From positions 806,001 through 870,000 of the forward strand of contig NZ_CP033918.1 in assembly GCF_003815675.1 (NCBI RefSeq): a DNA stretch of 64,000 bases. The letters run 5' to 3'. The notes under the pieces were generated by a model. It was not told the DNA's origin, ran no database searches, and saw only the letters and a program-made list of their open reading frames with translations. Numbering within the stretch: position 1 is the first letter of the stretch; each line of letters begins with the position of its first letter. The stretch is from Chryseobacterium sp. G0186 (GTDB lineage: Bacteria > Bacteroidota > Bacteroidia > Flavobacteriales > Weeksellaceae). Shown in pieces: positions 17,941-61,207 of this stretch. The position numbers and the translations under genes are program-made.

Positions 17941-17970
17941 TTTGAAGTTTACAAATATTTCCTACCTTTG
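17941..17970 (+). promoter_or_regulatory. Promoter of the SRP RNA gene
   Basis: TTTG (17941-17944) and TACCTTTG (17963-17970) are an exact -33/-7 pair for Bacteroidota, separated by 18 bp. The RNA's first stem begins at 17975, five bases after the -7 element. It is the clearest promoter in the window and calibrates the others. Confidence 0.85.
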
Positions 17971-17974
17971 CAAC

Positions 17975-18079
17975 GGCAAGTCCTAAACAACCAGCTCCTG
18001 AGAATCCTCCAGGGTGGGAACGCAGCAAAGGTAATCGGTCGTAGCGGTGTGATTTAGGTAGCTTGCCATTTTTTTTTGT
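17975..18079 (+). ncRNA. ffs: Small signal recognition particle RNA (4.5S type) with terminator
   Basis: The ends GGCAAG (17975) and CTTGCC (to 18067) pair, and TCCTAAA pairs with GATTTAGG to make a long rod. The apical part contains the diagnostic Ffh-binding elements: CTCCAGGGTGGGAACGCAGC followed by AAAGGTA and GTAGCGG. This is the bacterial small SRP RNA without an Alu domain. With Ffh it targets nascent membrane and secreted proteins to the Sec translocon. A run of T residues from 18070 ends transcription. It is transcribed alone from the promoter at 17941-17970. Confidence 0.95.
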
Positions 18080-25866: not shown

Positions 25867-27417
25867 AAAGAGGCTGTCTCAAAAGTGAGGCAGTCTTTTT
25901 TATTCAAAAAAAGGAAAGCGAAAGCTTTCCTAATTGTATCAAATTGATTAATTTGCTGTGTGTTAAGTACATCAAAAGTAGTCTTTAAAGATTACAATCC
26001 CAAAGAAAATTTGCTTTTTCCTCCCAATTTATCGGAGTTGATTGATGAAAAGCATCCTGTAAAAATAGTTTCGGACATCATTGACGGGCTGGATATTAAA
26101 AGCTTAGTCAACACCTACAAACCTGGCGGAACTTCGTGCTATCATCCGAAAATGCTTTTGAAAGTTTTAATTTACGGTTATTTGAGTAATATCTATTCGA
26201 GCCGTAAAATAGAACAGGCCTTGAAGGAAAACATCCATTTTATGTGGGTTTCTGCAATGAGCCGTCCCGACCATAATACCATCAACAGATTTCGCAGCCA
26301 GCGTTTGAAGGGCGAGATTAAAGCCATCTTCACACAAATCGTTCTTCTTTTAGAGAAAGAAGGTTTGGTAAGTCTGGAAACCACTTTTGTAGACGGCACA
26401 AAGATAGAAGCCAATGCCAACCGCTATACTTTTGTCTGGGGAAAAGCCATCAAAAAACATAAAGCAAGAATTTCCCAGCAACTGGAAGAACTTTGGAATT
26501 ATGCGGAAAAAGTGGCAAAAGATGAGCTTCAGGATACAGAGAATATTGATTTTAAAGAGGTAGATTCTGAAAAAGTAACTCAAACCATCACAAAGATCAA
26601 TGAGGTTCTGAGAGATAAAAAAGCACCTTCAAAAGTCCGTCAGAAGCTGAATTATGCCAAGAAAAACTGGGCTGCCAATTTAGATAAATATAAGAAACAA
26701 CAGGAAATATTAGGAAGCAGAAATTCTTATTCCAAGACGGATACCGATGCAACATTTATGCGGATGAAGGATGATCATATGCAAAACGGGCAGCTAAAAC
26801 CGGCTTACAATCTGCAGATTTCCACCAACAGACAATTTATTTTACATTATTCCATACATCCCAACCCAACCGATACCAAAACATTAGAATCTCATTTACA
26901 GGGTTTTGAAGAGAGCTATCAGAAAGTTCCAAAAGAGCTTGTAGCGGATGCAGGATATGGCTCGGAAGAAAACTATAACTTATTGAAATATAGAAAAATA
27001 AAGGCTTATGTAAAATACAATTACTTTACAAAAGACCAAAAGTCAGGACAGATAACCACTTCACAGAATAATCCTAAACTGGCAAAAATCAGGGAAAAGA
27101 TTTTCAAACTTCTTAATACCCCAAAAGGCGTCAGGCTACGCAAACAGCGATGTCACGATGTTGAACCTGTTTTCGCCCAGCTCAAACACAACAAAAATTT
27201 TAAACGCTTCCTGCTTAGGGGAAAAATTAAGGCCGAGCTGGAAATCGGCATACTTGCCATTGCCCATAATCTCAAGAAAATGGCAAAAGCAGCCTGAAAA
27301 AGACTGCTTTTTTAAATTTCTATCTTCCTTTTTCAAAATTTTTTAAATACAACAACTGAAAAAGCTTTTTGTTAACATAAAAACAAAAAGAGACTGTCCT
27401 TTTGAGACAGCCTCTTT
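25867..27417 (+). mobile_element. IS1182-family insertion sequence (short variant)
   Basis: Ends are exact 19-base inverted repeats AAAGAGGCTGTCTCAAAAG (25867-25885) and its complement (27399-27417), giving 1551 bp. No clear target duplication is seen: the left flank is TAAAATAC and the right flank ATTTTTCA. Each end carries further self-complementary bases (GCTGTCTCA with TGAGGCAGT on the left; GAGACTGTC with GACAGCCTC on the right) followed by T-runs, so the ends can act as terminators. It lies between the convergent DUF4286 gene and a small lipoprotein gene. The single transposase gene is open along its length. Confidence 0.88.
25960..27297 (+). CDS. IS1182-family transposase (445 aa, lacks Cys cluster)
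   Basis: A DDE transposase with the DUF772-type N-terminus (LLFPPNLSELIDEKHPVKIVSDIIDGL), a helix-rich region and MSRPDHNTINRFRSQRL. DDE residues: Asp in TFVDGTKIEANANRYTFVWGK, Asp in LVADAGYGSEENY, Glu in CHDVEPVFAQLKHNK. Start is GTG at 25960; no ATG is in frame nearby. Compared with the 540-aa transposase at 59585, it lacks about 90 residues between GYGSEENY and VEPVFAQLK, including the CPFG...CPLRESC Cys cluster. Catalytic residues are intact. It may be an active short lineage or an in-frame deletion derivative. Confidence 0.9.
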   Translation: MLSTSKVVFKDYNPKENLLFPPNLSELIDEKHPVKIVSDIIDGLDIKSLVNTYKPGGTSCYHPKMLLKVLIYGYLSNIYSSRKIEQALKENIHFMWVSAMSRPDHNTINRFRSQRLKGEIKAIFTQIVLLLEKEGLVSLETTFVDGTKIEANANRYTFVWGKAIKKHKARISQQLEELWNYAEKVAKDELQDTENIDFKEVDSEKVTQTITKINEVLRDKKAPSKVRQKLNYAKKNWAANLDKYKKQQEILGSRNSYSKTDTDATFMRMKDDHMQNGQLKPAYNLQISTNRQFILHYSIHPNPTDTKTLESHLQGFEESYQKVPKELVADAGYGSEENYNLLKYRKIKAYVKYNYFTKDQKSGQITTSQNNPKLAKIREKIFKLLNTPKGVRLRKQRCHDVEPVFAQLKHNKNFKRFLLRGKIKAELEIGILAIAHNLKKMAKAA

Positions 27418-33618: not shown

Positions 33619-35502
33619 CTACATGTCCTGAAAGTCAATGTCTTCATTGCTTACTTTTACATGGTATTCAATTCCATCTATAGCTTTAGCAATAATTTGG
33701 TTTCTTGTGATATTGGCCATGTTTTCCCAATATGCCCTTCCATAGAAAGAATAGTTTTGCGGAATGATCTCTACCTCAACAGTTCTTACAAAACCTTCCT
33801 TAGGTCTGTTGCTGATCATGGTTCCTCTTCTTACCCTCACTTCTCGTAGTTCATCTTTCAGCACCATTCTGCAATAATTCTTGACATCTTCCAGAGAAAT
33901 GATTTTATCTCTTGTCGTCAGGGCATATTTATACGCCTGAATACTGTCTGTTCCTTTCTGTTCTTCAGCTCCACCAAGGGTTTCTGTAAGCAATACAACC
34001 GTCTGCGACTTTAACTGGTTGGAAAGTTCTGTTCCCGGACGCATATGATTGGCCAATGTACAGTGAGTGATCCAGAAAGCGGCATAGGTATGATCTGTTT
34101 TTTCTACAGGTTCCATAATCACGTAGTTCAGTTCCTGTCTGATGCTTCTTTTGGCATTATTTACTTTCTGCACCATAGATTTCATCTTATCTGACATTTC
34201 ACTAAGAACGCCCTTCACATTATCTCTGTTTAATAGAGAAAATGCTGCAATTTCGTCTCTTGTCAGTTCCAGAACGTTGGCAATCATATCTACCGCATTT
34301 CTGTTGGTGAAACGCTCCATTCCACCTTTTCTTACGGTGTACAATCCTTTTTTAAGGTCATCAGCTGGGGTAAATGGTATTTCGGTATATCTTCTTCCAT
34401 CTCCATCCTGAACCTCATCTACATATAAGAAGTGTTCTCCCTCATCGGTTACCAGAGGAATGTTATTTCCCATAATATCAAGACTGTATTCTGTCTTCTT
34501 CCAACCCCTGTTGTAAATTGGAAAAGCATTTAATACGAAGGAAAAGTTATCCAGAATTTCTGCAGAGAACTGTGGCGGAAACTCAAAAGTAAGCCATAAG
34601 TAGCGCTTGTTATCAAGATATTTTACAATTTCCTCTTTTCCTGCCAGAAAATCAAGATTCTGGGGAAGCTGCCCTGCTTCTGAAAACAAACTGCTGGAAA
34701 GCCCTGTAATCTCAATGAATTTATGTCGGTAGATACTTTTAATATCCTCGATAACCTTGTTTCGGATAGATTGTTCCTTGAACATCTGCTCATATCCATC
34801 CGGATTACTCTCTGTAAGATAACTTAATCCTTCCCTTACGAATAAAGGGTTTCCATTACTTGAAACCGTAATATAAGGCAATAGTTTATATACAAAATCC
34901 AAATGCTCAAAAGCAGGATTGGAGCAAAATATGCTCATATACTTAGGAAAATTCTCGCTGACGTATTTACTGACATCAACTCCTACCGTTATTTTTCTGT
35001 AATCTTCCGGCCTCCCGTTAAATCTTGCAATAGGAATTTTATTGAATCTGTCATCAATACTGTAGCAGGTATTTCCTACAAACATTACTGAAGTGTGAAC
35101 TTTATTAATTCTTACATTCCCCACAGGAGTGAAAGGTATATTCAGTTGTTTATCTGATTCTGACTTTACGGTAGAAGTCATTTGCTTACGGAAGAAAAAC
35201 TCTGTATGCTCTAATAAAACCTCGGAAGATTCATAGGGTTGTGTAAAGGCCACTGCATGGGCCGGAATAGGATGTGTATAAATGGATGGAGTCAATAGTT
35301 TTGCCAGTTTTTCTAAAATTCGGGCATTGACTGTCTGTATTTCATTATTCGCTTTAAAAACTTCTGTACTGAATGCATCTATCAATAGTTTTACAAAGGG
35401 ATCTAAAGACTGTGGACTCTTCAATCCCCAGACCTTAGTAGCATTCTGAAGCATTCTTGCTTTTACAGATTCCTTGGAATAAATATTCTGATCTAAATTC
35501 AT
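33619..35502 (-). CDS. tssF: Type VI secretion baseplate subunit TssF (subtype iii-like)
   Basis: A 627-residue protein beginning MNLDQNIYSKESVKARMLQNATKVWGL, with DPFVKLLIDAFSTEVFKANNEIQTVNARILEKLAKLLTPSIYTHPIPAHAVAF. This N-terminal pattern and the later FPIYNRGWKKTEYSLDIMGNNIPL and RTVEVEIIPQNYSFYGRAYWENM match TssF of the Bacteroidota T6SS subtype iii. TssF forms the wedge of the contractile baseplate with TssE, TssG and TssK in the cytoplasm. Here only tssE is adjacent; no tssG, tssK, sheath or ClpV gene is in the window. It is the second gene of a two-gene unit ended by tandem hairpins. Confidence 0.8.
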   Translation of the reverse strand: MNLDQNIYSKESVKARMLQNATKVWGLKSPQSLDPFVKLLIDAFSTEVFKANNEIQTVNARILEKLAKLLTPSIYTHPIPAHAVAFTQPYESSEVLLEHTEFFFRKQMTSTVKSESDKQLNIPFTPVGNVRINKVHTSVMFVGNTCYSIDDRFNKIPIARFNGRPEDYRKITVGVDVSKYVSENFPKYMSIFCSNPAFEHLDFVYKLLPYITVSSNGNPLFVREGLSYLTESNPDGYEQMFKEQSIRNKVIEDIKSIYRHKFIEITGLSSSLFSEAGQLPQNLDFLAGKEEIVKYLDNKRYLWLTFEFPPQFSAEILDNFSFVLNAFPIYNRGWKKTEYSLDIMGNNIPLVTDEGEHFLYVDEVQDGDGRRYTEIPFTPADDLKKGLYTVRKGGMERFTNRNAVDMIANVLELTRDEIAAFSLLNRDNVKGVLSEMSDKMKSMVQKVNNAKRSIRQELNYVIMEPVEKTDHTYAAFWITHCTLANHMRPGTELSNQLKSQTVVLLTETLGGAEEQKGTDSIQAYKYALTTRDKIISLEDVKNYCRMVLKDELREVRVRRGTMISNRPKEGFVRTVEVEIIPQNYSFYGRAYWENMANITRNQIIAKAIDGIEYHVKVSNEDIDFQDM

Positions 35503-35525
35503 AATTTCTTTTGCTGTTAAAAATA

Positions 35526-35966
35526 TTAATCAATAGACATCGGGCTCAGGAACAATTCGGTTGAAAAACTGAAACGCTCTCCTGTTTCCTCCATCTTGGC
35601 ATTGATGGCAATTCTTACTTTCTTTTTGATTTCGGTGTGTTCTTTGGTATCGTAGCTGTGTTCTACAAATTGTATATTGGCATCTATTTGCGGTTGTACA
35701 ATCCGGGGTTCATACTCCTGGATCTGTCTTCTAAGGCTTTTGATAAAAACGTTTTCCCAGATGGCACTTGTTACTCCATTATCGAATTCCAGGTTCCAAA
35801 CATCATTTCCATAGTTTTCATCATATCTGTTCTCTCCTTTTTTGGTGGTGATCAGCAGCATAATATTGTGGGCAATACTCTCCCCCATATCGCATGTATC
35901 GATACTTCCGCCTTCGGTCATTAAAGTAGATGGCACGAAAGGCATTCTGTAATTTGGTGTATCCAT
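35526..35966 (-). CDS. tssE: Type VI secretion baseplate subunit TssE (gp25-like)
   Basis: A 146-residue GPW/gp25-family protein. The core MGESIAHNIMLLITTKKGENRYDENYGNDVWNLEFDN fits gp25/TssE, where a conserved Glu-containing helix and Asn/Tyr-rich strand link the baseplate to the sheath. The C-terminal strand-rich part HTEIKKKVRIAINAKMEETGERFSFSTELFLSP completes the domain. It is 23 bp upstream of tssF, which identifies it as the T6SS subtype-iii TssE and not a phage protein. The rest of the machine must be encoded elsewhere. Confidence 0.8.
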   Translation of the reverse strand: MDTPNYRMPFVPSTLMTEGGSIDTCDMGESIAHNIMLLITTKKGENRYDENYGNDVWNLEFDNGVTSAIWENVFIKSLRRQIQEYEPRIVQPQIDANIQFVEHSYDTKEHTEIKKKVRIAINAKMEETGERFSFSTELFLSPMSID

Positions 35967-38246: not shown

Positions 38247-38285
38247 AAAAAAGTTCGGCAATCCTTTGGATTGCCGAACTTTTTT
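38247..38285. terminator. Strong bidirectional terminator
   Basis: AAAAAAGTTCGGCAATCC (38247-38264) and GGATTGCCGAACTTTTTT (38268-38285) form a perfect 18-bp stem with loop TTT. It ends both the DUF4920 transcript and the convergent M14 peptidase transcript, whose stop codon is inside the hairpin. Confidence 0.92.
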
Positions 38286-39393
38286 AATCTTCTATTTTAA
38301 AATCAACTACTGCATCAAGTTTTGGATATTTATTGACAGAGACAAACTTCTTTCCTGTACAATCTATTTCCAGCCAGCCTTTTCTCTTTTTCACATCTCC
38401 AGCTTCCATTACAAAAGGGATAAAGGAAATTTCATCCTTACCATCCTCTTTCATTTCTCTATATTGAACAGCAATATCCAGAATACACTCATGTTCTGTA
38501 TTCAGCTTAACATTTCTGTAGATAATATCATAATGAGTCTCCTTGTTTTCCGGAATTTCAAGGTAAGTTTCCCATCCTGTAATATCAGAGTCCAATTCAC
38601 TGATAGCCTTCAATGCATAGTAAAGAGCAATGGTATAATACTTCCTTGTTCCTTTTCTCGTATAATCATCTACAAAATGTCCACCTTCGAATAGTATAGT
38701 AGGCATTCCGGCCTTTATAAAGTTATCCCCTGTAGAGGTTGGATAAAACTCATCAGAATATCTTCCGATCTGATCAGGAATCATTTCCTTAAGATGGTTG
38801 TAAACATTTCCGATCACGGCCATACACTTCTTTCTGTTTTCAGTTACAGTACGCTCTACATTTTCAGAGGGAGCTAAAAAAGATAATGTCGCCGGATGAA
38901 TACCATCAGTAGTAAAGATTGTTCTTTGTTCATGAAGGTTTAAGGCATAATCATATTTTTTGGAAGCGGCTGCATTTTTTAGAAATTTAATCTCCTTGCT
39001 TGCCTCATTATGAAAATCTCTATTCAGATCTATATCGGCAGCATTCAGCCGGGTCCATCTTTCCGAACCGTCAGGGTTTAGCATAAAGATAAAATCCAAT
39101 CTTATTTTACTGAATAAATCTTCCTTCATTTCGGGAGACTTATCAAGACTTATGAGAAGATCAAGCATAGCATGGGTAGCATTGGATTCGTTTCCGTGCA
39201 TTTGCGACCAAGCCAATACCGGAATGTTTCCGGTTCCGATGCTTAGCTTATAAATAGGTTTATCTAAATATGATTTTCCGATCTCCTGAATATAATCGCT
39301 GAGATTAGCCTGTAAGTAAGAAAATAATTTTTCAGGGGAAATATAGCGATTTGAGAAATCGGGGGTTGGAGAATAGATCTGTTCAAAATTCAT
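38284..39393 (-). CDS. M14-family zinc carboxypeptidase
   Basis: A 369-residue peptidase from ATG 39393 (the upstream frame to 39456 is rejected because the protein starts MNFEQIYSPTPDF). The zinc ligands are His66 and Glu69 in WSQMHGNESNATHAM, and His154 in LNLHEQRTIF. NPDGSERWTRLNAADIDLNRDF positions the substrate carboxylate-binding Arg and Asn, and ILFEGGHF contains the catalytic Glu. The lack of a signal peptide suggests a cytosolic peptidase or deacylase of the M14 family. The substrate is unknown. A -7 element lies at 39417. Confidence 0.9.
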   Translation of the reverse strand: MNFEQIYSPTPDFSNRYISPEKLFSYLQANLSDYIQEIGKSYLDKPIYKLSIGTGNIPVLAWSQMHGNESNATHAMLDLLISLDKSPEMKEDLFSKIRLDFIFMLNPDGSERWTRLNAADIDLNRDFHNEASKEIKFLKNAAASKKYDYALNLHEQRTIFTTDGIHPATLSFLAPSENVERTVTENRKKCMAVIGNVYNHLKEMIPDQIGRYSDEFYPTSTGDNFIKAGMPTILFEGGHFVDDYTRKGTRKYYTIALYYALKAISELDSDITGWETYLEIPENKETHYDIIYRNVKLNTEHECILDIAVQYREMKEDGKDEISFIPFVMEAGDVKKRKGWLEIDCTGKKFVSVNKYPKLDAVVDFKIED

Positions 39394-39416
39394 TGTTGAA
39401 AATAATTTACAAGAAT

Positions 39417-39424
39417 CAAATTTA
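39417..39424 (-). promoter_or_regulatory. -7 element of the M14 peptidase promoter
   Basis: Minus-strand TAAATTTG fits TAnnTTTG, 24 bases upstream of the ATG at 39393. No clear -33 TTG. Confidence 0.5.
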
Positions 39425-39477
39425 ACCATTTTAAGATATAAAACATAAAATAACATATGTAAACAAGCTCAGAACAA

Positions 39478-39518
39478 TGTAAATTGCTGAAATTTCGAGT
39501 TACAAACTGCAATTTACA
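39478..39518. repeat. Perfect 10-bp inverted repeat
   Basis: TGTAAATTGC (39478-39487) and GCAATTTACA (39509-39518), 21-base spacer containing another GTTACAAAC. It could fold into a hairpin or bind a dimeric regulator. It lies between the M14 peptidase start and the TACA-NN-TGTA array. Confidence 0.55.
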
Positions 39519-39556
39519 GAAGTTAAATTAAAGAAATTTAGCTTATCAAAGATTAT

Positions 39557-39566
39557 TACATATGTA
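39557..39566. promoter_or_regulatory. TACA-NN-TGTA dyad 1
   Basis: TACATATGTA, a perfect 10-bp palindrome, part of the set of six in this gene-free region. Confidence 0.4.
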
Positions 39567-39790
39567 ACATTGTTAAACGATCCTTATTGACATATTGTCT
39601 GTGGATAAAATTGTGGATTGCGAATAATTTAATTACATATATTTAAAATACTTAATTTCAACTAGTTACAATATTTATCTAAATACTATTTGTAACTGTA
39701 CTTGAACTCATAAAAAGCCTATTTTAAGCGAAATGAGTATATTATTTTTAAACATTAAGAATGTGGAAAACCATCGTGTTTACACATATA

Positions 39791-39800
39791 TACAATTGTA
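39791..39800. promoter_or_regulatory. TACA-NN-TGTA dyad 2
   Basis: TACAATTGTA, a perfect 10-bp palindrome of the same TACA/TGTA type. Confidence 0.4.
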
Positions 39801-40190
39801 AATCATTGAAAATTTAGAATTTTAGTATTAATTTATAATAACTTTTTCTTTTTTACTTCGTTTTAAATTTCATGGAAAATTAATTTGGCTTATACAAGAG
39901 AGATTTACTTGAAAATTACTCTATAAAGGTATTTTACAAGAGTAATTTACGGTTGTATATAGGTAATAAACCCTTTTTAAATAGGCATTTGCTTCAATTA
40001 AGGTCATTTATCGTATAACATAGCATTCTACTAATAAGTTAACGTTGTAAACTCCTTTACGTTCTATAATTATTGAAATAATAGAGAGGTTTAGCCATCA
40101 AAATTTACATTTCTAATCCGTTTTTAGGCACATATTAACAACCTAAATTAATTCAGAGCTATATCAAGTTTATAGAGAAAAAGGATAAAC

Positions 40191-40200
40191 TACAAATGTA
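40191..40200. promoter_or_regulatory. TACA-NN-TGTA dyad 3
   Basis: TACAAATGTA, the reverse complement of the three downstream copies, 53 bp before dyad 4. Confidence 0.5.
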
Positions 40201-40243
40201 ATAAATACACAATCATCTATATATCAATGTATTATTTATTATT

Positions 40244-40253
40244 TACATTTGTA
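40244..40253 (+). promoter_or_regulatory. TACATTTGTA copy 4, overlaps -7 consensus
   Basis: TACATTTGTA contains TACATTTG, an exact TAnnTTTG -7 element. No TTG at the -33 distance, so it is either a regulator site only or a weak promoter. Confidence 0.5.
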
Positions 40254-40255
40254 TA

Positions 40256-40286
40256 TTGATAAAATAATTGTTAGTTTACATTTGTA
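40256..40286 (+). promoter_or_regulatory. Promoter with overlapping TACATTTGTA operator (copy 5)
   Basis: TTG (40256-40258) precedes TACATTTGTA (40277-40286) by 18 bp, a full -33/-7 pair in which the -7 element lies inside the palindrome. Bound regulator would block RNA polymerase. Confidence 0.55.
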
Positions 40287-40287
40287 G

Positions 40288-40321
40288 TTTGTTTTTGTAA
40301 ATTATATTATTTACATTTGTA
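40288..40321 (+). promoter_or_regulatory. Promoter with overlapping TACATTTGTA operator (copy 6)
   Basis: TTTG (40288-40291) precedes TACATTTGTA (40312-40321) by 20 bp; 22 bases after it is the regulator's ATG. It is the most likely start point for the regulator's mRNA and for autoregulation. Confidence 0.6.
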
Positions 40322-40343
40322 AAATAATTAAAGGCTTATTTTT

Positions 40344-40880
40344 ATGAGTTTAAACGAAAGAATTTCAAAAGTTATAGAGTATTCCAATCTTACTCCCTCT
40401 GAATTTGCAGATGAGATCGATGTACAGCGTTCCTCGATTTCGCATATTACATCTGGACGGAATAAACCATCTCTGGAGTTTATCATAAAAATAAAGTCTC
40501 GCTTCCCGGAACTTCTTTGGGATTGGTTAGTAACCGGTGAAGGAGAAATGCTAAAGTCTGAGTTGCCGGAACAGGAAATTTCAGAGGAGTCATCTGAAGA
40601 AGATATGGTAAGGCCTACCCCTTTGCCGGATCTGTTTACCATGATGAATGATGACGATGATTTTGGAACCGAAGAAGCGGAAATAGATCTGCCTCCAGCA
40701 GGCTCTGGAGAATCCTTTATATCATCCCAAGATAAAGCTCCGGAAAAAATATCAGATTCTCAGCGATTAGAAAATTTTCCTGAAGAAATCATTAGTCAAG
40801 CTATTGGAAATCAGACCAATAAAATAAAACGTATTGTTTTGTTCTACGAAAACGGGAAATTTGAAAGTTTTGAGCCATAA
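40344..40880 (+). CDS. XRE-type helix-turn-helix regulator
   Basis: A 178-residue regulator. Residues about 6-65 form a Cro/C1-type HTH domain: ERISKVIEYSNLTPSEFADEIDVQRSSISHITSGRNKPSLEFIIKIKSRFPEL with the recognition helix at VQRSSISHITSGR. It is followed by WDWLVTGEGEM, a motif seen in flavobacterial members. The middle (65-150) is low-complexity and acidic (EEISEESSEEDM region), and the conserved tail IKRIVLFYENGKFESFEP may be an oligomerisation segment. No signal peptide. It is preceded by tandem promoters overlapped by palindromes and followed by a hairpin, so it is an isolated, probably autoregulated transcription factor of unknown targets. Confidence 0.88.
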   Translation: MSLNERISKVIEYSNLTPSEFADEIDVQRSSISHITSGRNKPSLEFIIKIKSRFPELLWDWLVTGEGEMLKSELPEQEISEESSEEDMVRPTPLPDLFTMMNDDDDFGTEEAEIDLPPAGSGESFISSQDKAPEKISDSQRLENFPEEIISQAIGNQTNKIKRIVLFYENGKFESFEP

Positions 40881-58168: not shown

Positions 58169-58603
58169 ATGGAAGAGCAATTAAGGTCAGTGTACATCAA
58201 GCGTACACAGAAAGATTACAGTTTAAGTTTAAAACTTCAAATAGTAAAAGAAGTTGAATCTGGTGAATCGACCATTAGTACTTGTCGCAAGAAATATGGT
58301 ATACAATCCCACGGGACTATTTTAAATTGGCTCAGAAAATATGGTAACTTTGATTGGGAAAACCAAAGACCTTATGCCATGGAAAAGACACCTGAACAAC
58401 GTATTATGGAATTGGAAGCTGAAGTTAAGCTTCTTGAAAAACAGAAAGCCTTCTTGGAAAAACAGGCTTATATTGCTGATAAAAAAGCTATATTTTTTGA
58501 TATGATGATTGATCTTGCAGAGAAAGAATATCGCATTGATATTCGAAAAAACTCACCACCCGAACAATCGATGACTTCCGCAGTAAGGAAAAAGAAACTT
58601 TGA
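58169..58603 (+). CDS. IS3-family transposase OrfA
   Basis: A 144-residue protein with an N-terminal HTH (KIVKEVESGESTISTCRKKYGIQSHGTILNWLRKYG) and then a leucine-zipper-like coiled coil (EQRIMELEAEVKLLEKQKAFLEKQAYIADKKAIFFDMMIDLAEKEY). OrfA binds the ends and, when fused to OrfB by frameshifting, forms the transposase OrfAB. Its 3' end contains a slippery A_AAA_AAC heptamer at 58546-58552. Frame 0 goes on 17 codons to the TGA at 58601-58603. Confidence 0.92.
   Translation: MEEQLRSVYIKRTQKDYSLSLKLQIVKEVESGESTISTCRKKYGIQSHGTILNWLRKYGNFDWENQRPYAMEKTPEQRIMELEAEVKLLEKQKAFLEKQAYIADKKAIFFDMMIDLAEKEYRIDIRKNSPPEQSMTSAVRKKKL
58546..58552 (+). promoter_or_regulatory. Programmed -1 frameshift heptamer A_AAA_AAC
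   Basis: In OrfA's frame the codons are CGA AAA AAC, so the preceding A plus AAA AAC is the canonical X_XXY_YYZ slippery sequence. A -1 slip gives AAA AAA then CTC ACC ACC CGA..., with no stop before OrfB's LIFTCGLLG. The shifted frame has a TGA just upstream of the heptamer, so the shift must occur here or later. Confidence 0.7.
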
Positions 58604-59469
58604 TTTTTACTTGTGGATTGTTAGGGTTAAATAGACAAATCTATTATAGAAGTATCAAGCGTACAGAAGTTTGTAGGAATAGGGCTTCAGAGGTTGTAGA
58701 ACTGGTAGAGTGTGTTCGTATTAAAATGCCCCGATTAGGAGGCAGAAAACTATATTTTATTTTAAAAGAATCCCTAGGTTCTATCAAAGTAGGAAGAGAT
58801 AAATTCTTTGACATCCTAAGAGCGAATCATTTATTGATTGTCCCCAGGAAAAATTACCATGTTACGACCAACTCCCATCATCGCTTCAGAAAGCATAAAA
58901 ATTTGATTCTGGACTATCAGATCACAAAACCCAACCAGGTTTGGGTTGCTGATATTACTTACATAGGGGACAGAAAAAGCCCAAGCTATTTAAGCTTAAT
59001 AACGGATGCTTATTCCAAGAAAATAGTGGGACATTTTGTAGCAGATAATTTAAATACAGAAAGTAGTCTTATCGCATTGAAAAGAGCTTTAAAGAAACAC
59101 AAAGGTATGGTAGGCCCATTAATTCATCATTCTGATCGTGGCTTACAATACTGCTCGAATGAATATCAGAAAGTCTTGCAAAAACATCAATTAAAATGCA
59201 GCATGACACAAAACTCAGATCCTTATGAAAATGCAATAGCAGAGAGGATAAATGGTATTTTAAAGCATGAATTTAATATTGATAGACATCATATAAACAA
59301 TGCGTTAAGAAGAAAATTAGTGGATGAATCCATTGAAACCTATAATAATCTACGTCCTCATTTTTCAAATTATTATCTAACCCCAAATCAAATGCATAAA
59401 CAGACAAAAATTAAAATGAGAACTTATAAAAATAAAAACCAAAGCAAAAGAAAATTTGCTCTGGTTTAA
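58600..59469 (+). CDS. IS3-family transposase OrfB (DDE integrase)
   Basis: The catalytic part of the transposase: HTH_21-like start CGLLGLNRQIYYRSIKRTEV, then rve-type core. DDE triad: Asp in QVWVADITYIGD, Asp in HHSDRGLQYCS, Glu in AIAERINGILKHEF with the usual 35-residue spacing, and then integrase tail TYNNLRPHFSNYYLTPNQMH. The listed TTG start at 58600 is only formal; translation is expected by -1 frameshifting from OrfA at 58546-58552 (fused peptide includes KLTTRTIDDFRSKEKETLIFT). Confidence 0.93.
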   Translation: MIFTCGLLGLNRQIYYRSIKRTEVCRNRASEVVELVECVRIKMPRLGGRKLYFILKESLGSIKVGRDKFFDILRANHLLIVPRKNYHVTTNSHHRFRKHKNLILDYQITKPNQVWVADITYIGDRKSPSYLSLITDAYSKKIVGHFVADNLNTESSLIALKRALKKHKGMVGPLIHHSDRGLQYCSNEYQKVLQKHQLKCSMTQNSDPYENAIAERINGILKHEFNIDRHHINNALRRKLVDESIETYNNLRPHFSNYYLTPNQMHKQTKIKMRTYKNKNQSKRKFALV

Positions 59470-59584: not shown

Positions 59585-61207
59585 TTATGCGGCAAATTTA
59601 TACTTTTGGTTTTCTATATACTCAGTGAAAGAATGTCTAGTTTTTTTACCTTTAAGCGTACGTAGCCAATTTTTACGGGTAAGTTTTCTGTTTTTCGCTA
59701 ATTTTCTAAAATTATGCGCCAATGCCATTAATCCAAATTCAATATTTACTTTTTCAAGTCCTTTTAGAGTAAATCTTGAAAATTTATTATTGCTTTTTAG
59801 TTGTCCGAATACAGCTTCTACTTCTATAGGCCGTTTACTTCTGTGGTAATGTCCTTTTTCAGATATCAGCCTTTGCCTGGCTTTCATTCTGTGATGGTTC
59901 AGATTATAATTCACTTCGATTAACCGATTATCCTGGCTTTGATGGCAGCTTTCTCTAAGAGGACAACCCTGACAGCTGAAAGCCTGATAATAATGTACCT
60001 GAGATTCATATCCGTTACTGCTGATTCTTTTGCCTTTACCGATAAAGTTCATTTGCTGTCCAAAGGGACATACATAGAAGTTATTTTCTTTATTATAATA
60101 CAAGTTCTGTACAGCAAACGCATTGTTCTTCTCACTGCGTTTCTGTTCTTTATGAAAATTATTATATTTTACATACCCCTCTATAGCTTTTTCTGCCATC
60201 ATTTCGTAATTCTCTTCACTTCCATATCCGGCATCTGCTACTACCTCTTTACTTTGTTTGTGGTACTGATTTTCAAAACCGTTAAGATGATCCTTCAATG
60301 TAGTGGTATCTCCAGGAGTCTGATGAATGCTGTAATGTGTGATAAACTGGTTTTCAGTACTGATCTGTGCATTATAGGCTGGCTTAAGCTGTCCATTTTT
60401 CATATGGTCGTCTTTGAGCCGCATGAAGCAGGCATCGGGATCTGTCTTACTATAACTATTGCGGCCTGAGAGTATTTTTAACTGATCTTCATACTTCTGT
60501 AATCTGGGCAGGTCCTGATGCTGAAGCTTTTTGATAAGCTTCTTACCGGTTTTATTGTCCTGTGCCACATCGTGATTAAGCTCTGCTATTTTATCCTGAA
60601 GCTCTCTGCTGTCAATAGATTTTGGAAGGACCTTTTCATGGGATTCATAACGTTCTTCTTTGATTTGAGATTCAATTTCTTCAAGTACGGAATGAATTTG
60701 GGCTTCCAGTTTTAATTTATTCTTTTCTACAGATTTTTTCCATACAAAGCTGTATCGGTTGGCCGATGATTCTATTTTTGTCCCATCTATATATTGAACA
60801 GTTAAACTTACGTAACCCAAATGCTGCAAAACAACGGTAACATCTGCAAAAAGACGATGAATATGGTTTTTAAGCCGTTTGCTCCTAAAGTAATTGATGG
60901 TTCTGTAATCAGGCTTACTGTTGCCGGAAAGCCACATGAAATGAATATTTTCTCCAAGTGCCTTTTCTATTTTACGGCATGAATAAATATTGTTGAAATA
61001 GGCATAGAATAAAACTTTGATCATCATACGGGGGTGAAAGCTTGTCGTTCCACCGCCTTTATATTCACTCATTATATGATCGATATTTAAGCTATCCACT
61101 AATTCATTGATAAGACGTACAGGATGATCAGAACCGATCTTATCAAAAATATCTTCAGGAAATAAGCTGGGAGTATTGGAGGGTAAAGATTTAAAACGTA
61201 CTTTCAT
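59585..61207 (-). CDS. IS1182-family transposase (540 aa, with Cys cluster)
   Basis: The longer, apparently complete relative of the transposase at 25960. The N-terminal SLFPEDIFDKIGSDHPVRLINELVDSLNIDHI is DUF772-like, then HFMWLSGNSKPDYRTINYFRSKRL. Catalytic: Asp in YIDGTKIESSANRYSFVWKK, Asp in VVADAGYGSEENYEMM, Glu in KRPIEVEAVFGQLKSNNKF. Between the last two it holds CPFGQQMNF...CQGCPLRESCHQSQDN, a Cys cluster likely to bind zinc. Intact from ATG 61207. The gene points left, away from the T9SS gene at 61338. Confidence 0.92.
   Translation of the reverse strand: MKVRFKSLPSNTPSLFPEDIFDKIGSDHPVRLINELVDSLNIDHIMSEYKGGGTTSFHPRMMIKVLFYAYFNNIYSCRKIEKALGENIHFMWLSGNSKPDYRTINYFRSKRLKNHIHRLFADVTVVLQHLGYVSLTVQYIDGTKIESSANRYSFVWKKSVEKNKLKLEAQIHSVLEEIESQIKEERYESHEKVLPKSIDSRELQDKIAELNHDVAQDNKTGKKLIKKLQHQDLPRLQKYEDQLKILSGRNSYSKTDPDACFMRLKDDHMKNGQLKPAYNAQISTENQFITHYSIHQTPGDTTTLKDHLNGFENQYHKQSKEVVADAGYGSEENYEMMAEKAIEGYVKYNNFHKEQKRSEKNNAFAVQNLYYNKENNFYVCPFGQQMNFIGKGKRISSNGYESQVHYYQAFSCQGCPLRESCHQSQDNRLIEVNYNLNHHRMKARQRLISEKGHYHRSKRPIEVEAVFGQLKSNNKFSRFTLKGLEKVNIEFGLMALAHNFRKLAKNRKLTRKNWLRTLKGKKTRHSFTEYIENQKYKFAA

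Follow-up and report, generated by a model that had tools for sequence, protein, structure and literature searches.

A conserved array of TACAnnTGTA dyads, candidate operators of an XRE-family regulator, between its gene and a divergent M14 peptidase gene in Chryseobacterium

The XRE family takes its name from PBSX Xre of Bacillus subtilis, whose binding sites are several short dyad copies around its own gene (GATACAAAATGTATC, an operator sequence that was not found in the literature searched). The other system of closest interest is that of lambda CI, in which an operator near -42 is the activating position. As described in the excerpted text of PMC3708714, binding of CI to OR1/OR2 activates PRM and binding to OR3 represses it. 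According to excerpts of PMC6847099, the sigma factor of Flavobacteriales recognises promoters of a -33/-7 type that differs from the E. coli one; their consensus is TTTG/TANNTTTG, in which the -7 box spans -12 to -5 (excerpts of PMC6847099 and PMC9723704). The literature search yielded no study of the XRE regulator described here or of its operator, and the excerpted text of PMC9723704 makes no mention of XRE.

The window, i.e. the whole 64-kb stretch of Chryseobacterium DNA analysed, contains a gene-free intergenic region of 950 bp, flanked by an M14 peptidase gene on the minus strand (start 39393) and an XRE gene on the plus strand (start 40344). Elsewhere in the window are three transposase-like genes or gene pairs recognised by eye (25960-27297, 58169-59469 and 59585-61207, the first and third apparently related), TssF- and gp25-like type VI secretion baseplate genes (33619-35966; PF05947, PF04965) and the Bacteroidales small SRP RNA (17967-18072), the sole Rfam match in the window at the gathering threshold. 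The features of the locus are as follows.

38284..39393, minus strand: divergent M14-family zinc carboxypeptidase gene (PF00246, 35.9 bits; start MNFEQ at 39393)
39417..39424, minus strand: -7 box TAAATTTG of the M14 peptidase gene (TAnnTTTG 26-33 bp before the start in 94/94 loci)
39452..39461, minus strand: near-dyad TACATATGTT in the peptidase promoter, its centre 32.5 bp upstream of the -7 box (about -44.5)
39557..39566, no strand: candidate operator dyad, outer copy of a duplicated peptidase-promoter segment (by local alignment)
39600..39620, plus strand: DnaA-box-like pair TGTGGATAA / TGTGGATTG, 12 bp apart, in conserved non-coding DNA
39791..39800, no strand: distal candidate operator dyad, near -553 (arms intact in 76/95 genomes)
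40191..40200, no strand: candidate operator dyad at -153 (at -152/-153 in 28/95 genomes, part of the genus)
40244..40253, no strand: candidate operator dyad at -100 from the ATG (arms intact in 73/95, centre free)
40277..40286, no strand: candidate operator dyad at -67 from the ATG, about -42 from the predicted XRE transcription start (arms intact in 52/95)
40288..40291, plus strand: -33 element TTTG of P1, the promoter of XRE, 20 bp upstream of its -7 box (TTG spaced 19-20 bp from the box in 89/95)
40296..40299, plus strand: candidate half-operator TGTA(AA) between -33 and -7 (TGTA in 93/95)
40312..40321, no strand: candidate operator dyad on the XRE -7 box, the -32 slot (arms intact in 94/95, centre always TT)
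40312..40319, plus strand: -7 box TACATTTG of P1 (TAnnTTTG in 95/95)
40344..40880, plus strand: XRE-family regulator gene, 178 aa (PF01381)

A preliminary description of this DNA had placed six TACAnnTGTA dyads at 39557, 39791, 40191, 40244, 40277 and 40312, and every coordinate proved correct; the window holds these six and no others. Their number is beyond chance. In the 64-kb window 1.03 dyads are expected, and six were reached in one of 100 whole-window shuffles. When the intergenic region was dinucleotide-shuffled 2000 times, a mean of 0.06 and a maximum of 2 dyads were recorded, and six were found in none (0/2000). Enrichment of the motif across the whole genome (5.04 Mb) is only mild, at 123 dyads versus 85 matches to the reversed pattern used as control. 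A weight matrix of 18 bp, derived from 211 sites in the other genomes, recorded 9 sites with a score of at least 8 in these 950 bp versus 7 in 303 kb of the same genome, and its extra sites are at 39452, 39948 and 40106. Tandem dyads are confined almost only to the XRE promoter among 40 genomes, as evident from 57 of 63 matches (counted by hand from the listing) at that promoter and 3 matches for the reversed control in the same genomes.

The XRE protein consists of an N-terminal HTH_3 domain, an acidic variable linker and a short conserved C-terminal KIKRIVLFYENGKFESFEP. Its PF01381 (HTH_3) score of 29.7 bits exceeds the Pfam gathering threshold of 23, and the Pfam search of the protein returned HTH domains alone, with no CI-type C-terminal oligomerisation/cleavage domain. 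A match to the protein is present in 97 of the 98 Chryseobacterium genomes sampled. Residues V27, R29, S30, H34, R39, N40, S43 and L44 are invariant among 58 orthologues, and these eight positions (27-44) surround the presumed recognition helix. Three profile relatives were found in the PDB, including a solved PbsX-family regulator (9k3w, E 1.3e-4).

The peptidase promoter was analysed in 94 of 95 Chryseobacterium loci. A dyad matching 7 or 8 of the 8 arm bases lies 15-50 bp upstream of the peptidase box in 85/94, and in 81/94 such a dyad is centred 31.5 or 32.5 bp before the box, i.e. at -43.5/-44.5; a dyad at a peptidase-like distance accompanies only 1 of 328 background boxes of this genome. 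The inner copy in the window (39452) had been missed in the preliminary description, and the suggestion of a wider regulatory hub gains support from the presence of a similar dyad in the divergent peptidase promoter. The -43/-44 position is where class II activators bind, and the placement of the dyad suits an activator in the window's family. That the XRE protein activates the peptidase there is given a little less than an even chance. A TTG at 17-23 bp from the peptidase box is present in 4/94 loci and absent from the window's copy; the missing -33 element is only weak evidence for activation, because this element is generally weak in F. johnsoniae, where the excerpted text of PMC6847099 calls the -33 motif 'much less evident'.

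Of the 23 other loci of the window's family outside genus g21, 14 again have the dyad at -30.5 to -33.5 and 9 are without a peptidase dyad at the usual distance; among the 14, L291-L293 belong to genomes with a partial or missing XRE match. Eleven g21 loci, in which the peptidase is without such a promoter, lie outside these 23, and the start codon of L203 was not found.

Local alignment of 39404-39462 to 39511-39567 gave a score of 48, the maximum of 500 shuffles being 46; no TAnnTTTG box was seen by eye in the outer copy. Both peptidase dyads (7/8 or better) are present in 17 of 34 long intergenic regions, and the inner dyad only in 55 of 60 short ones. The tandem duplication is apparently common to the Chryseobacterium group with long intergenic regions. 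MAFFT misaligned long against short regions near the peptidase, and alignment conservation left of about 39580, including the slot rows for the 39557 and 39453 dyads, is unreliable. Two further inverted repeats that had been listed for this region, 39478-39518 and 39664-39697, are not well supported: the former overlaps the duplicated segment and its left arm is not kept in the 19 alignment rows (of 95) that were compared, within the unreliable stretch, and the latter is conserved only partly.

The neighbourhood was also compared in 20 other genera, chosen by hand from 32 with an XRE match. In all 20 the peptidase is encoded on the opposite strand, no more than 6 kb upstream of XRE (about 5 kb in L200), with a TerC gene between the two in 13 and none between in 7. 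A perfect dyad was found within 100 bp of the XRE start in 14/20 genera and none at that distance in the remaining six (L190, L194, L195, L196, L198, L201). In each of the ten best-scoring loci of three other families a perfect dyad lies no more than 100 bp from the XRE start, and the peptidase adjoins in 8 of them. The upstream neighbour varies, yet the dyad array stays beside the start of XRE.

The counterparts of the 39791 dyad in other genera precede the TerC gene, and there 10 of 13 TerC promoters have a dyad at -29.5 to -33.5 from the box (-41.5 to -45.5). In the window no TerC/Alx-family gene (TIGR03718) stands between peptidase and XRE, and the stretch 39801-40190 is poorly conserved. 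The distal dyad probably still serves, perhaps for looping, since 76/95 genomes of the genus keep it. A leftward promoter at this dyad received no support, with a TTG at 17-23 bp in just 3 of 56 cases. TerC itself was rejected as an explanation of this dyad in Chryseobacterium: a TerC relative was matched elsewhere in 39 of 40 genomes, and the 30 such loci fetched are all without a dyad.

In a wider sample of loci without a nearby XRE gene, no perfect dyad was found in 14 with the full 700 bp upstream (eleven g21 loci, G254, G223 and G234), in most of which another gene adjoins, as judged by eye. Perfect dyads are nevertheless present in L306 (391 bp) at -371, L291 at -303 and L292 at -637.

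Flavobacterium, a genus assigned from the names of hits to one of its XRE proteins, was represented by the best-scoring 30 of 41 genomes' loci. A perfect peptidase-promoter dyad is present in 22/22 loci with an adjacent XRE gene and in 0/8 without one. When mapped on a tree, XRE adjacency and the dyad each changed four times, concordantly in 4/4, a number of pairs with which p 0.05 is unreachable. In the 22 XRE-bearing loci the perfect dyad is centred 19.5 bp before the peptidase box, on the -33 region, and a second dyad (7/8 or 8/8) lies on the peptidase -7 box itself; these placements would suit repression. The same geometry recurs in 5 of the first 8 out-of-family loci (L281, L282, L285, L287, L288), with L283, L286 and L290 differing. 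The upstream region of the XRE-less Flavobacterium loci is also changed or rearranged, and the dyad may have vanished together with the rearranged DNA. A 7/8 dyad is kept at the same peptidase-promoter spot in XRE-less L402, and 8/8 and 7/8 dyads are kept on the -7 box in L417 and L426; L427 shows only 281 bp upstream.

The XRE protein appears to be the likeliest binder of the dyads, because the array follows the XRE gene, gene and operator co-occur, tandem dyads are found mainly here and the HTH residues are invariant. A different, unlinked regulator of the XRE and peptidase genes is the strongest alternative, although an unlikely one. The genome-wide excess of dyads (123 versus 85) would allow other genes to carry single sites, binding by the XRE protein is a reading of sequence, and the L306 dyad lies near a peptidase gene in a genome (81% complete) without an XRE match. 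Such a regulator would, however, leave unexplained why arrays are found almost only at the XRE locus, why the array tracks the XRE gene through changes of neighbour, and why adjacent XRE and peptidase dyad change together in all four independent cases. Furthermore, of the 27 dyad loci of this genome inspected, two are the XRE locus and most others are intragenic, while five intergenic single dyads (L003, L009, L206, L213, L214) resemble ordinary -7 boxes by eye, a judgement that leaves aside the intergenic loci L010, L211 and L216. No genome-wide regulon is proposed from these loci.

When the upstream regions of 95 of 97 Chryseobacterium loci were aligned (contig-edge loci G001 and G090 being left out), a comparison that the preliminary description had proposed, the dyads were seen to keep fixed positions upstream of XRE, and every one of the 95 genomes has at least one dyad within 1 kb upstream. 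Changes were counted on a tree built from coding sequence alone. The -32 dyad (40312) shows one change across all ten bases. The half-site at 40296 shows 0-2 changes per base and is a full dyad in 0/95 genomes. In the -100 dyad the arm bases underwent only 0-4 changes each, against 21 and 18 for the two centre bases and an average of 26.7 per base for the spacer 40256-40272; the 73 intact dyads have 28 AA, 27 TT, 9 AT and 9 other centres. Frozen arms against a changing centre and spacer are the pattern expected of a DNA-binding footprint. The -67 slot is the loosest of the three proximal ones, with arm bases changed 1-13 times each and the right arm of 40277 kept in 73/95. The -153 slot was counted from per-genome dyad positions, as the alignment has gaps there. 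Isolated strongly conserved bases at 40226 (A) and 40232-40234 (TTA), with 0-10 changes versus 28-45 for their neighbours, sit about one helical turn before the -100 dyad. The operator array is thus upheld, conserved dyads overlapping the XRE gene's own promoter (94/95 on the -7 box, with the footprint on the tree).

The preliminary description had gone further and read the three proximal dyads as three tandem promoters buried in operators. In this genome they are indeed identical copies TACATTTGTA, spaced 33 and 35 bp, each with TACATTTG inside, and a TTG precedes two of the three boxes, by 20 bp (40312) and 18 bp (40277); in the window sequence the 40244 box is not preceded by one at a distance of 17-23 bp. 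The comparison across genomes makes this reading very unlikely, as a conserved -33 element accompanies the proximal -7 box only. A TTG at 17-23 bp accompanies 15/79 of the -67 boxes and 10/44 of the -100 boxes, and one at 19-20 bp 6/79 and 1/44, versus 89/95 for P1; the background rate of P1-like spacing is 24/328 boxes of this genome. At -100 the box is present only in the reverse sense in 28/95 genomes, and the centre is free; the -7 box is therefore not the conserved thing there. Since the -67 and -100 boxes are without the TTG spacing of P1, the promoter region reads as a single promoter whose -7 box is covered by an operator, with further operators upstream. A perfect dyad overlapping a -7 box also occurs in 3/328 background boxes.

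The intergenic region also carries the DnaA-box-like pair, with a perfect TTATCCACA at 39600-39608 and a third DnaA-like box at 39762-39770; the non-coding DNA from 39490 to 39815 is conserved. Its distance from the peptidase start is 80-120 bp in 43 of 60 short intergenic regions and 200-220 bp in 32 of 34 long ones, the pattern being unmatched in 19 of the 94. It might be a titration site, or a promoter controlled by DnaA. In other genomes an identical pair forms part of multi-box clusters that look like origins (G001 contig 46, G018 contig 12), and this likeness, together with a perfect DnaA box in AT-rich DNA, would fit a chromosomal replication origin at the locus. That reading has scarcely any probability left and was rejected on GC skew, here and in ten further genomes, and on the orientation of the rRNA operons: no sign change of GC skew was recorded across the 64-kb window or between points 60-80 kb either side in 10/10 other genomes, and a 20-point skew sample with the divergent rRNA operons places the origin at about 3.1-3.8 Mb, the locus being at 0.845 Mb. 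A search for plasmid relatives of the intergenic DNA gave one match to 10% of the region, taken as chance.

Inverted repeats within a long gene-free stretch might also be taken for RNA stem-loops or part of a non-coding RNA, but this is equally improbable and was ruled out, as 4-bp arms around 2 bases cannot form a stable hairpin, the centre varies freely, RNAalifold consensus energies were 0 to -0.8 kcal/mol in all ten region/strand tests (24 of 95 sequences) and the intergenic region has no Rfam match. Energies of shuffled sequences were almost all zero, which makes z-scores meaningless, and the raw energies alone were relied on.

The dyads are thus best read as putative operators of the XRE protein (40344-40880), presumably bound as a dimer. 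It is probable, with good though not full confidence, that the XRE protein binds them and autoregulates its own gene; the suggestion that the arrangement suits autoregulation agrees with the geometry, an operator dyad lying on the XRE -7 box. With this operator on the -7 box of a single promoter, the protein would repress its own synthesis. The upstream copies may provide cooperativity, or the one at about -42 might activate while the protein is at low concentration, like lambda CI at PRM. The same protein would control the divergent M14 peptidase from the fixed-position promoter dyad, perhaps by activation, and the TerC-type membrane-protein gene in genera keeping TerC there. Dimer binding, like the sign of regulation at both promoters, is what we infer from these arrangements. 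A broader proposal, a lambda CI-like chromosomal switch in several families that combines repression of its own gene from the -7-box operator with activation of the M14 peptidase (and, where present, of a metal-homeostasis protein of TerC type) from the dyad at about -43/-44, has the sign of regulation of this target reversed in Flavobacterium through dyads placed on the core promoter, and may be tied to replication by the DnaA-box pair beside the peptidase operator, is offered only tentatively.

To our knowledge, few regulator/operator pairs are known in Flavobacteriales. The locus provides a defined candidate operator TTTACAnnTGTAAA, a candidate regulator, two or three target promoters and natural losses for comparison. 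Activator geometry at TAnnTTTG promoters can be tested here, as can a putative shift between activating and repressing placement from one family to another.

An autoregulated XRE regulator with its operators would be an ordinary type of system, and as such it is well supported by conservation. Among known regulators, the RstR-type phage repressors (NCBIfam NF041951) resemble the XRE protein in a weak N-terminal match of 29.8 bits, far under the family cut-off of 80. PBSX Xre is alike in having short dyad copies at its own gene, and in the PbsX-family structure 9k3w being among the PDB relatives of the XRE protein; unlike it, the XRE gene here is chromosomal and present in 97/98 genomes of the genus, and its dyad has a 2-bp rather than a 3-bp centre. 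Lambda CI at OR/PRM differs in several respects, as the proximal XRE operator lies on a Bacteroidota -7 box, the XRE dyads are 10 bp long, the XRE protein is without a Pfam domain besides the HTH, and its divergent target is a peptidase rather than a lytic operon, with activation only putative. In both systems, nevertheless, the promoter of an HTH regulator's own gene has several copies of the operator, here a candidate one, and a candidate operator near -42, at a fixed promoter distance, is found here at the peptidase (81/94) and TerC (10/13) promoters as in the lambda CI system.
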